A stretch of 64,000 nucleotides of DNA. It comes from Silvibacterium acidisoli. GTDB taxonomy: Bacteria; Acidobacteriota; Terriglobia; Terriglobales; Acidobacteriaceae. The translations under genes were made by a program, and so were the position numbers. The DNA lies in assembly GCA_022870745.1 (NCBI GenBank), contig CP085323.1, positions 2,914,001 through 2,978,000 on the forward strand, given 5' to 3'. The stretch's first letter is position 1; the number at the start of each line of letters is the position of its first letter. The notes below the pieces were generated by a model. It made no database searches, was not told the DNA's origin, and worked only from the letters and a program-made list of their open reading frames with translations. Below, piece after piece: positions 1,691 through 4,421 of this stretch.

Positions 1691-2986
1691 ATGGCAATTA
1701 CCAGTGTAAGCAGTTCCGCGAAAGTCTCCGCTTCGCCCGGGGGCAATTACAGAAGCGCCTTCGCAATGGTCACCACGTTGTTCTTCATGTGGGGCTTTCT
1801 GACCTCTCTCAATGACATCCTCATTCCGCACCTCAAAGCCGTTTTCGACCTCGACTACACCAAGGCCCTGCTGATCCAGTTCGCATTCTTCTCCTCTTAT
1901 GCGGCCTTCGGTGTTCCATCGGGCAAGATCGTCGAATGGATCGGTTATCAGCGGACAATGGTGGCTGGCCTGTTCACCATGGGACTCGGCGCGGTGTTGT
2001 TTATTCCCGCTGCCAGCGTGCCCTCGTTCCCGCTCTTTCTTGCAGCCCTGATTATTCTCGCTGCCGGCATCACCGCATTGCAGGTTGCCGCCAACCCTTA
2101 TGTCTCGATCCTCGGATCAGCGCAAACCGCATCGAGCCGCCTCAATCTGACACAGGCTTTCAACTCGCTGGGTACCACCATCGGGCCCCCGCTTGGCGGG
2201 TGGCTTATCCTGCGTGGCGCTCACAAGGCGATTGAAAACGTAAAGGCACTCTCGCCTGAAGCACTCCAGGCCTATCGCGTGGAACAGGCTTCGACCGTGA
2301 AGATGCCCTATCTCGCGATCACGCTTGCACTGGTTGTGCTCGGCCTTGCGATTGCCTTCTATCGCTTCCCCCGCCTTGATACCACGCGCGAGTTTCGCCC
2401 GACGGGCGGCACAAAAGGCCCTGGCATCTGGCGCTATCCGCACGTTGTGCTCGGCGCTGTCTGCATCTTCGTCTATGTCGGGGCGGAAGTCGCCATCGGC
2501 AGCTTCCTCATCAACTACTTCAATCAGCCGGACATCGGTAATATCTCGATCGCGGCGGGTGCGAACCTCGTGCCCTTTTACTGGGGTGGCATGATGACGG
2601 GCCGCTTTATCGGTTCGTGGATCATGCAGCGCTTCAGCCCGGCAAAGCTGCTCGGCATCTGCGCGATCGGCGCAACTGCCATGGTGATCCTGTCCATGCT
2701 TTCCACCGGCTACGTCGCCGTCTGGACGATCCTGCTGGTGGGCATCTTCAACTCCATCATGTTCCCGACCATCTTCACCCTGGGCGTTGCCGAGATGGGG
2801 CCGCTGACGGGTGAAGCCTCCGGTCTGCTCGTTACCGCGATTGTAGGCGGAGCGATTGTGCCGGAGATCGAGGCCGTGCTCGCCGATCACATCGGCCTGC
2901 ATCATGCTTTCATCGTCCCGACGCTCTGCTACGTCTTTGTCGCTTACTACGCGTTCCGCGGTTCGAAGATCAAGCAGCCCGCATAG
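1691..2986 (+). CDS. Sugar MFS transporter, FucP/GluP family
   Basis: A 431-residue inner-membrane permease with about 12 hydrophobic segments. The first segment carries FFMWGFLTSLNDILIPHLK, and the middle has AANPYVSILG and LTQAFNSLGTTIGPPLGG, signatures of the FucP/GluP branch of the major facilitator superfamily (L-fucose, glucose or galactose:H+ symporters). The exact sugar cannot be read from sequence. A short N-terminal Ser/Ala-rich cytosolic tail precedes the first helix. The ATG follows GAGGAAG at a 10-nt spacing. It stands alone, with no sugar kinase or isomerase beside it. Confidence 0.88.
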   Translation: MAITSVSSSAKVSASPGGNYRSAFAMVTTLFFMWGFLTSLNDILIPHLKAVFDLDYTKALLIQFAFFSSYAAFGVPSGKIVEWIGYQRTMVAGLFTMGLGAVLFIPAASVPSFPLFLAALIILAAGITALQVAANPYVSILGSAQTASSRLNLTQAFNSLGTTIGPPLGGWLILRGAHKAIENVKALSPEALQAYRVEQASTVKMPYLAITLALVVLGLAIAFYRFPRLDTTREFRPTGGTKGPGIWRYPHVVLGAVCIFVYVGAEVAIGSFLINYFNQPDIGNISIAAGANLVPFYWGGMMTGRFIGSWIMQRFSPAKLLGICAIGATAMVILSMLSTGYVAVWTILLVGIFNSIMFPTIFTLGVAEMGPLTGEASGLLVTAIVGGAIVPEIEAVLADHIGLHHAFIVPTLCYVFVAYYAFRGSKIKQPA

Positions 2987-3036
2987 CCGGGTTGTTTGAC
3001 TTCGTATCGTGACTCTGTTTTGATGGTTCCAACGTT

Positions 3037-3117
3037 ATGCAGCCTCTCGTGGCCAACTTCGGTGTTGTCGTGATCGACAGCCGAATTATTGCGGCCATTA
3101 TTATTCCCTCCACCTAG
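3037..3117 (+). CDS. ilvA leader peptide (attenuation control ORF)
   Basis: A 26-codon ORF lying between the transporter and ilvA. Its codons include Val5, then Val10-Val11-Val12-Ile13, Ile17-Ile18 and a run Ile21-Ile22-Ile23 before Pro-Ser-Thr and TAG. This composition matches the logic of enterobacterial ilv leader peptides, whose tracts of Val and Ile codons act as sensors. The stop at 3115-3117 lies 1 nt before the presumed antiterminator arm. The Shine-Dalgarno is weak, which is the main doubt; an in-frame TGA at 3010-3012 and the lack of other start codons leave ATG 3037 as the only start. The peptide itself probably has no function. Confidence 0.72.
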   Translation: MQPLVANFGVVVIDSRIIAAIIIPST

Positions 3118-3118
3118 G

Positions 3119-3192
3119 AGCGGATGGCTGCCGGACGAAGGATTGAAACCAGGCCACCAACCGCTTCAGCGGCTGGTGGCCTTTCTGCTTCT
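3119..3192 (+). promoter_or_regulatory. Transcription attenuator of ilvA
   Basis: Two alternative RNA pairings are visible. The terminator-type hairpin is 3151-3182: AGGCCACCA pairs with TGGTGGCCT, an inner CCGC pairs with GCGG around a TTCA loop, and a pyrimidine-rich TTCTGCTTCT follows. The competing antiterminator pairs 3119-3127 (AGCGGATGG) with 3157-3165 (CCAACCGCT), 8 of 9 positions matched, which consumes the terminator's left arm. A ribosome that finishes at the leader stop (3115-3117) would cover 3119-3127 and let the terminator form. A ribosome stalled on the Ile codons would leave 3119-3127 free. The downstream U tract is imperfect, so termination efficiency is uncertain. Confidence 0.7.
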
Positions 3193-3209
3193 GGGAGGAG
3201 CAGCACAAG

Positions 3210-4421
3210 ATGAGCGTCACCCTGAACGACGTACAGGCCGCGCGCCAGCGCATTCGCGACTTCATTTATCTTTCTCCAGCCACGCAGTCGGCTGCGCTTT
3301 CGCAGATGACCGGCCAGCAGGTCTATCTCAAGCTCGACAACCTGCAGCGCACCGGCGCCTTCAAGGAGCGGGGCGCGCTGAACAAGATCCTGCTGCTCTC
3401 TGACGCCGAGAAGCAGCGTGGCGTCATCGCCGCCAGCGCCGGGAACCACGCACAGGCCGTGGCCCACCACTCGACGCAGCGCGGCATCCGCTCTCGCATC
3501 GTGATGCCTCTGACCACTCCTCTGGTCAAGGTTTCATCGACGACAAACTTTGGCGCGGAAGTTGTGCTGCACGGAGCGAACTACGACGAGGCGTGCGCCG
3601 AAGCCATTCGCATGAGCGAAGCTGAGGGGCTGACCTTCCTGCATCCCTTCGACGACGAGCAGGTGATCGCGGGGCAGGGAAGCATCGGCCTGGAACTGAT
3701 TGATCAGATTCCAGGCCTTGAGGCTGTCGTTGTGCCCATCGGTGGTGGAGGACTGATCGGCGGCGTGGCCTGTGCCATCAAGGAAAGTAATCCGAAGATT
3801 CGCGTCATCGGCGTACAGACCGAGCGCCTGCCCTCCATGCTGCGTGCAGCGGAAAAAGGCGAGCCGGTAACGATAGCTGCCGAGGCGACTGTCGCTGACG
3901 GCATCGCGGTCCGGCGTGCGGGCGAGAAGACACTGCCTCTGGTTCAGCGCTACGTCGATGAAATGGTCACGGTCGACGAAGAAGAGATTGCCAAGGCGAT
4001 CCTGGTGCTGCTGGAACGCGAAAAGACGCTGGCTGAAGGTGCCGGTGCAGTAGCTCTGGCTTCGCTGCTGCAGCATAAGACCTCGCTCAAAAACAAGAAG
4101 ACCGCCGTGTTGGTCTGCGGTGGCAATATCGACGTCAGCCTGCTGGCACGCATCATCGAGCGTGGCCTGGTGAAGGACGGACGCCGCACCCGTCTGCGCA
4201 TCCATCTCGTGGATCGCCCAGGGTCGCTCGTGAACCTTACGCACATCATCGCCGATGCACGGGCCAACATCGTGCAGACCTCGCATGATCGCGCCTACTA
4301 CGGTGTCAGCCTGGGAGACACCGTTATCGACTTCACCCTTGAAACGCGCGGCGCGGAGCACATTTCCGAAATCGGGCGCCTGCTGACCGAGGCAGGCTAC
4401 AGGCACGAGCGGATCGACTGA
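3210..4421 (+). CDS. ilvA: Threonine ammonia-lyase with C-terminal ACT-like domain
   Basis: A PLP-dependent enzyme that deaminates L-threonine to 2-oxobutanoate and ammonia, the first committed step to isoleucine. The 403-residue protein has the fold-type II core: PLP lysine K52 in TGAFKERGALNK, SAGNHAQ at 76-82, and the phosphate-binding loop GGGGLIGG at 178-185. A single ACT-like regulatory domain occupies about 325-403, giving the shorter ~400-residue IlvA/TdcB form and not the 500-residue E. coli IlvA. The start follows GGGAGGAG (3193-3200) directly after the attenuator hairpin. Isoleucine-codon attenuation upstream argues for a biosynthetic role; a catabolic role would be the alternative on length alone. 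Confidence 0.93.
   Translation: MSVTLNDVQAARQRIRDFIYLSPATQSAALSQMTGQQVYLKLDNLQRTGAFKERGALNKILLLSDAEKQRGVIAASAGNHAQAVAHHSTQRGIRSRIVMPLTTPLVKVSSTTNFGAEVVLHGANYDEACAEAIRMSEAEGLTFLHPFDDEQVIAGQGSIGLELIDQIPGLEAVVVPIGGGGLIGGVACAIKESNPKIRVIGVQTERLPSMLRAAEKGEPVTIAAEATVADGIAVRRAGEKTLPLVQRYVDEMVTVDEEEIAKAILVLLEREKTLAEGAGAVALASLLQHKTSLKNKKTAVLVCGGNIDVSLLARIIERGLVKDGRRTRLRIHLVDRPGSLVNLTHIIADARANIVQTSHDRAYYGVSLGDTVIDFTLETRGAEHISEIGRLLTEAGYRHERID

Follow-up and report, generated by a model that had tools for sequence, protein, structure and literature searches.

How is ilvA, the gene for threonine ammonia-lyase, controlled in Silvibacterium acidisoli? The gene lies in the window (the whole stretch of 64,000 nucleotides analyzed here, part of a 5.36-Mb genome that forms one contig), downstream of a sugar-transporter gene on the same strand. 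Its product scores 491 bits against the TIGR01127 profile, for which the cut-off is 378.75. Between the two genes lie, in this order, a promoter-like site, a short open reading frame (ORF), a hairpin, and the Shine-Dalgarno sequence of ilvA. An earlier note on this DNA interpreted the arrangement as an attenuator. The ORF, the placement of its codons, the hairpins, and their conservation in relatives support this interpretation, and very probably the region attenuates transcription of ilvA in the classical, ribosome-mediated way, with isoleucyl-tRNA as the signal sensed. The features are as follows.

1691–2986, + strand: MFS sugar-transporter gene, gluP subfamily, upstream of ilvA
2996–3024, + strand: promoter-like site; −35 TTGACT (2996–3001), 17 nt, extended −10 TG-T-TTTGAT
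3037–3117, + strand: leader ORF of 26 codons, predicted near-leaderless, peptide MQPLVANFGVVVIDSRIIAAIIIPST; counterparts in relatives
3082–3105, + strand: control region; CGA ATT ATT (3082–3090) and ATT ATT ATT (3097–3105)
3117–3134, + strand: 5′ arm of the antiterminator (strand 2), from co-transcriptional folds and the swap test
3149–3167, + strand: 3′ arm of the antiterminator, overlapping the 5′ arm of the terminator (strand 3), from the same two analyses
3151–3182, + strand: intrinsic-terminator-like hairpin (strands 3:4), 13 pairs, with an imperfect U tract at 3182–3190
3193–3200, + strand: Shine-Dalgarno sequence of ilvA, GGGAGGAG, from sequence reading
3210–4421, + strand: ilvA, threonine ammonia-lyase (TIGR01127 profile)

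The leader ORF and the predicted RNA switch

The ORF contains the runs GVVVI, RII, and III that the earlier note had described. With six Ile codons, the leader, whose translation is predicted, is rich in codons for the product amino acid. When 2961–3148 was dinucleotide-shuffled with the 3′ part kept fixed, none of 2000 shuffles gave an ORF with at least six Ile in its last 24 codons, and five Ile were reached once. Over 39 ilvA leaders, the last 24 codons contain on average 4.5 Ile and 1.2 Val; some ilvA leaders have few Ile codons, L198 and L199 fewer than two in this region. Both Ile and Val supply had been proposed as the signal. The Ile codons are conserved and isoleucine is likely the amino acid sensed, whereas Val codons show no conservation across ilvA leaders and valine was rejected as a co-signal.

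The −10 hexamer of the promoter-like site is at 3019–3024, and the leader ATG follows 12 nt downstream; a stricter promoter scan does not list the site at 2996–3024. Similar promoters precede 57 of 71 leaders, compared with 310 of 1360 shuffled controls. An extended −10 is present in 36/71 leaders (75/1360 shuffles), and the ATG lies 11–13 nt after the −10 in 27/71 (82/1360). This spacing suggests a start of the leader mRNA some 5 nt upstream of the ATG, in which case no Shine-Dalgarno sequence would be needed for the leader. In the excerpt of PMC9031893 available to us, leaderless starts are described as common in some bacteria. The leader Shine-Dalgarno is indeed poor, but what had been counted as a weak point fits a near-leaderless ORF, given the conserved promoter close to the ATG. 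A second, weak promoter-like pair is found within the leader ORF (3074–3101, TCGACA, 16 nt, CATTAT); it might produce attenuator-free transcripts, or be due to chance.

Folding of 3020–3210, which the earlier note had suggested as a check, gives −82.5 kcal/mol, 4.7 standard deviations below shuffled sequences (z −4.69), and none of 200 shuffles is equally stable. The hairpin between the leader ORF and ilvA has the form of an intrinsic terminator and is predicted to act as one: 13 pairs, from 3151/3182 to 3164/3169, give −25.2 kcal/mol in the local fold, at the position originally assigned to it. Its U tract is imperfect, as had also been pointed out, and a consensus terminator scan does not list the hairpin at 3151–3182, consistent with a weak U tract. 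By eye, T runs in many relatives are longer than that in the window.

The competing antiterminator pairs 3117–3134 with 3149–3167 (−22.2 kcal/mol in RNA made to 3168). The pairing of 3119–3127 with 3157–3165 proposed earlier exists, but it is only the outer part of this longer helix. We followed the energy of the free RNA on the assumption that a ribosome covers 13 nt from the first base of its A-site codon. As the A site moves through the last Ile, Pro, Ser, Thr, and stop codons, the energy changes from −22.2 to −17.5, −11.7, −8.2, and −5.6 kcal/mol. Thus, no A-site position beyond the last Ile codon leaves the antiterminator whole, and in these co-transcriptional folds it is gone once the ribosome is at the stop codon. 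The antiterminator and the terminator are mutually exclusive, and the former is masked from the stop codon but not from the control codons. The switch is visible only in truncated, co-transcriptional folds (RNA to 3168). Equilibrium folds of the full-length RNA with ribosome masks showed no switch, the mean pair probability of the terminator being 0.965–0.980 at every ribosome position. Because the terminator is always favored at equilibrium, any switching must be under kinetic control, which agrees with the classical model.

Based on these predictions, transcription would start at the site just upstream of the leader ATG. Under a shortage of charged tRNA-Ile, the ribosome would stall on the Ile codons at 3085–3105 and leave the RNA from 3117 on free, so that 3117–3134 could pair with 3149–3167 before the 3′ arm of the terminator is made; with the antiterminator formed, RNA polymerase would continue into ilvA. 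With Ile in ample supply, the ribosome would reach the stop codon at 3115–3117 and cover the 5′ arm of the antiterminator, the hairpin 3151–3182 would form, and transcription would stop.

A translated leader could also work otherwise: by altering ribosome access to ilvA, through Rho, or through a peptide acting in trans. Between the leader stop and the ilvA start there are 92 nt, peTrpL is described in the excerpts available as a known trans-acting leader peptide, and the accessible part of PMC1262725 reports that mutation of candidate control codons of Streptomyces coelicolor ilvB had no effect. Against these stand conserved terminator hairpins that end in T-rich tails, and an antiterminator that overlaps the terminator rather than the ilvA Shine-Dalgarno; such modes of action are improbable.

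Conservation and coevolution in relatives

To what extent is the attenuator retained beside ilvA? Matches to the ilvA protein are present in all 150 family genomes searched, in many of them as paralogues alone. A motif-blind test was applied to 86 upstream regions of the closest ilvA matches (at least 60% identity; one, L108, was omitted at a contig end). Its sole requirements were a terminator and, ending 10–60 nt before it, an ORF with three Ile or more. The test was passed by 20/86 regions and by 0/430 shuffled ones. It failed 66/86, and it misses some leaders found with the model described below; such a leader is absent from many family members. In more distant relatives, ilvA often lies directly behind another gene without a leader, as judged by eye.

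A covariance model, R1, was built from 28 leaders. At E≤0.05 it matches 81/200 family genomes and 42/247 phylum genomes, two sets that share genomes. In the own genome, the ilvA leader is the single match. The earlier note had stated that loss of the ORF or of its Ile run in close relatives would speak against an attenuator; all seven genus genomes in the search, including the own, match R1 with E values of 8.1e-4 or better. The Ile codons, their position before the antiterminator, and both hairpins persist across diverged relatives.

As controls for R1, we used 20 genomes reached via other loci. Sixteen of these carry other-phylum labels, and the remaining four (L030, L032, L033, and L087) have an Acidobacteria label or an ilvA 56–63% close, the latter making the label doubtful. 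With filters laxer than in the large searches, R1 matched 5/20 at E≤0.05 (best 0.0029), and 4/16 among those with other-phylum labels. Eight control matches were read, and seven are plain-looking terminators. The exception, L432, from a Roseivirga spongicola record (G434, approximately 1490–1620), contains an Ile-rich ORF, MKQVINIQTIITIVIESQ, and a terminator before a gene that reads as ilvD-like; it is likely an Ile/Val attenuator in a Bacteroidetes genome. In L033, a metagenome-assembled genome labeled Nitrospira, a short ORF, MTLNRQGIGISMAAAMMIAGHA, and a strong terminator lie about 120–190 bases before ilvA, without the CGA-ATT site.

We also exchanged strands between species, pairing strand 2 of one with strand 3 of another, and likewise strands 3 and 4. 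For the antiterminator, the mean energy is −18.46 kcal/mol for matched strands and −14.51 for swapped ones; for the terminator (3:4), the values are −23.10 and −16.07. In neither case did any of 10,000 permutations, which ignore relatedness, reach the matched value, and the result is the same in 37 ilvA leaders and 32 others taken separately. Both hairpins coevolve. In 69 leaders (the 71 minus L198 and L199, excluded for their low Ile content), the antiterminator region has a median energy of −19.8 while the ribosome occupies the last usable control codon, but of −3.2 when it has reached the stop. Against composition shuffles, the antiterminator has z<−1.64 in 39/69 and z<0 in 61/69; 30/69 do not beat the shuffles at z<−1.64, and z>0 in 8/69.

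These data also bear on a rival explanation, in which the hairpin, lying between two same-strand genes, is a mere terminator of the transporter gene and the ORF a chance frame. From the transporter stop to the hairpin there are 165 nt, and from the hairpin to the ilvA start 27 nt, which leaves little room for a promoter. Furthermore, the ORF, the codon position, and the antiterminator are kept beside ilvA in relatives, and shuffles do not produce such ORFs. A plain terminator of the upstream gene is highly improbable and was rejected in favor of the attenuator.

Related elements before other genes

The device is not unique to ilvA, as judged from the genes that follow R1 matches. We read 80 of 85 matches, selected at E≤0.0053 in the family search or, for additional ones, at E≤0.004 in the phylum search (unread: G071:C260 minus strand, G015:C27, G009:C193, G099:C32, and G379:C140). 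Forty lie before ilvA (tblastn E≤1e-10), 32 before other pathway genes, and eight elsewhere. Downstream genes were named by HMM for representatives, by coordinates common with the aspartokinase search, or else from the protein start by reading.

Aspartokinase: 14
ilvB or ilvN: 6
Citramalate-synthase-like: 5
Sulfur assimilation (siroheme synthase or nitrite/sulfite-reductase-like gene): 3
ilvD: 2
Homoserine dehydrogenase: 2

Predicted leader peptides include STITTTTITGAHGG and STTTATITTAGTGALGG before aspartokinase, NNIAVIIIIAIISIIVRT before ilvB, and RVSVIIISISVVIVIAITGGAGT before ilvD; one aspartokinase leader, L367, is not Thr-rich. With frames chosen blind to residues, 71 leaders contain 383 residues cognate to the downstream pathway (L200 and L213, with no usable hairpin or ORF, and the seven leaders of the class 'other' were left out). 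No label permutation out of 20,000 reached this number, the maximum being 315. The control codons therefore match the regulated pathway. Direct binding of a metabolite or protein by the leader RNA (a riboswitch, a T-box, or a target of an RNA-binding protein), with the ORF incidental, would suit the strong structure of the region, but an aptamer does not predict codon content that follows the pathway across genes, and this reading is barely credible. At 2900–3300, Rfam gave eight hits, none of which attains the gathering score of its family; their 13.8–22.1 bits, where 43–90 are needed, are far below cut-off, and riboswitches, T-boxes, and Rfam-listed leaders were rejected. In dozens of genomes, three features are in agreement: the codons of the leader, the gene that follows, and the RNA switch. 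This holds for Ile, Val, and Thr and probably for Cys, and it yields testable predictions of regulons.

Matches from beyond the own family were read for 14 genomes; in 11 of these, they lie beside such amino-acid or sulfur genes. A crude scan of 30 upstream loci per gene gave three candidates for ilvB, two for aspartokinase, one for leuA, and two for homoserine dehydrogenase, not all of them convincing, suggesting a widespread device that is nonetheless far from universal in the phylum. In the own genome, leuA, leuB, leuC, ilvD, and ilvB form a cluster (assigned partly by reading) with a divergent LysR-like gene, and lysC sits behind an asd-like gene. Inspection by eye of the stretches read upstream of leuA and ilvB in this genome revealed no Ile/Val leader; ilvA appears to be the separately controlled, Ile-specific step.

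Several individual loci deserve mention. Leaders with Cys runs and terminators precede siroheme-synthase or nitrite/sulfite-reductase-like genes in G164 (L364), G027 (L368), and G069 (L381), with peptides such as QCQCCSCCCMC... (before a siroheme synthase gene) and SCPCCCLCCCGC; these are probably cysteine attenuators. In L182 (G097), L194 (G191), and L238 (G177), two genes follow an Ile leader as an operon: one with an FMN-binding domain (assigned by HMM in one case and by reading in two) and one that is HMGL-like and citramalate-synthase-like. The name of the latter is tentative in these three cases, all from the own family: the protein tested is truncated at the end of the locus and reaches 153 bits, where 450 are required. 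The corresponding protein of L210 scores 657, above the cut-off. G097 has a weak ilvA match (best E 1.3e-57) and carries the element before the citramalate-synthase-like operon instead, which suggests an exchange of enzymes under one attenuator. Hydrophobic leader-like ORFs with terminators are also found in L208 (G128), L209 (G297), and L217 (G031), with no recognized amino-acid gene downstream. In L215 (G319), a Leu-rich leader, LINLVLTPLLGLLLGIILLVLARGSG, and a terminator are followed by an ORF without a Pfam hit and a gene of a menaquinone-biosynthesis family (PF02621).

Known leaders and the CGA-ATT site

The attenuation mechanism itself is already known. Like enterobacterial ilvL (of ilvGMEDA) and thrL, the acidobacterial leader has runs of cognate codons in its peptide, an antiterminator/terminator pair, and a stop codon by strand 2. 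The E. coli thrL peptide resembles its peptide further in R-I-S and a glycine-rich end. Unlike ilvL and thrL, it would control ilvA alone, has a near-leaderless start and CGA-ATT at the control site, and comes from a different phylum. Among the matches listed in our literature search, in which few subscription papers were covered, we found no report of amino-acid leader peptides in Acidobacteriota; some cases may reportedly be covered by the comparative survey of Lopatovskaya et al. of 2010. The novelty of such a device is therefore provisional for the phylum, whose members are common soil bacteria according to the available part of PMC7984625. As of 2010, attenuators in Acidobacteriota had almost no assigned functions, according to an excerpt of PMC2965389. 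The closest parallels seen in partial texts are candidate ilvB leaders of actinobacteria, which combine a short ORF, runs of Ile/Val/Leu codons, and a terminator before a branched-chain gene (PMC1262725), and the Corynebacterium ilvBNC uORF, a candidate of the same kind; gene, peptide, and phylum differ from those of the ilvA leader. Leaderless polycysteine ORFs of Mycobacteria, cited in PMC9031893 and comparable here by title alone, are also regulatory ORFs with repeated cognate codons, there for cysteine.

In 19/20 motif-blind ilvA leaders, an Ile ATT is immediately preceded by CGA in the same frame; this is the fair figure, as the 71 leaders came from a model favoring CGAATTA. In 17 long ORFs of the window, CGA makes up 5.6% of Arg codons and ATT 24.6% of Ile codons, compared with 39.9% in leader ends and 71.5% in leaders, respectively. 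All 46 tRNA-model matches of the genome were read: the Arg anticodons are ACG, CCG, TCT, and CCT, and TCG is absent. CGA should thus fall to the ACG tRNA, presumably in an inosine-modified form. Work with a his leader showed that CGA is read slowly and increases de-attenuation (PMC4046918, seen in part). In the ilvA leader, CGA may tune the attenuator switch. The CGA-ATT pair could be used to test directly whether attenuators use a slow codon by design.

A broader possibility, to which we give less than even weight, is an attenuation network in Acidobacteriota built across several families from one reusable module, in Acidobacteriaceae a near-leaderless ORF with a CGA-AUU(A) site. Slow, inosine-decoded CGA would poise the ribosome and sharpen the switch or set its basal level, and the module would move between ilvA, aspartokinase, and citramalate-synthase-like genes. 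The wider network and the codon signature merit experiments. Complementarity between CGAATTA and 16S rRNA was considered and dropped as chance. Support for a hairpin formed around CGAATTA is no more than partial: it is absent from many leaders, with a mean z of −1.12 and z<−1.64 at 19/51 sites, and 5/5000 permutations are as stable as the matched sequences.
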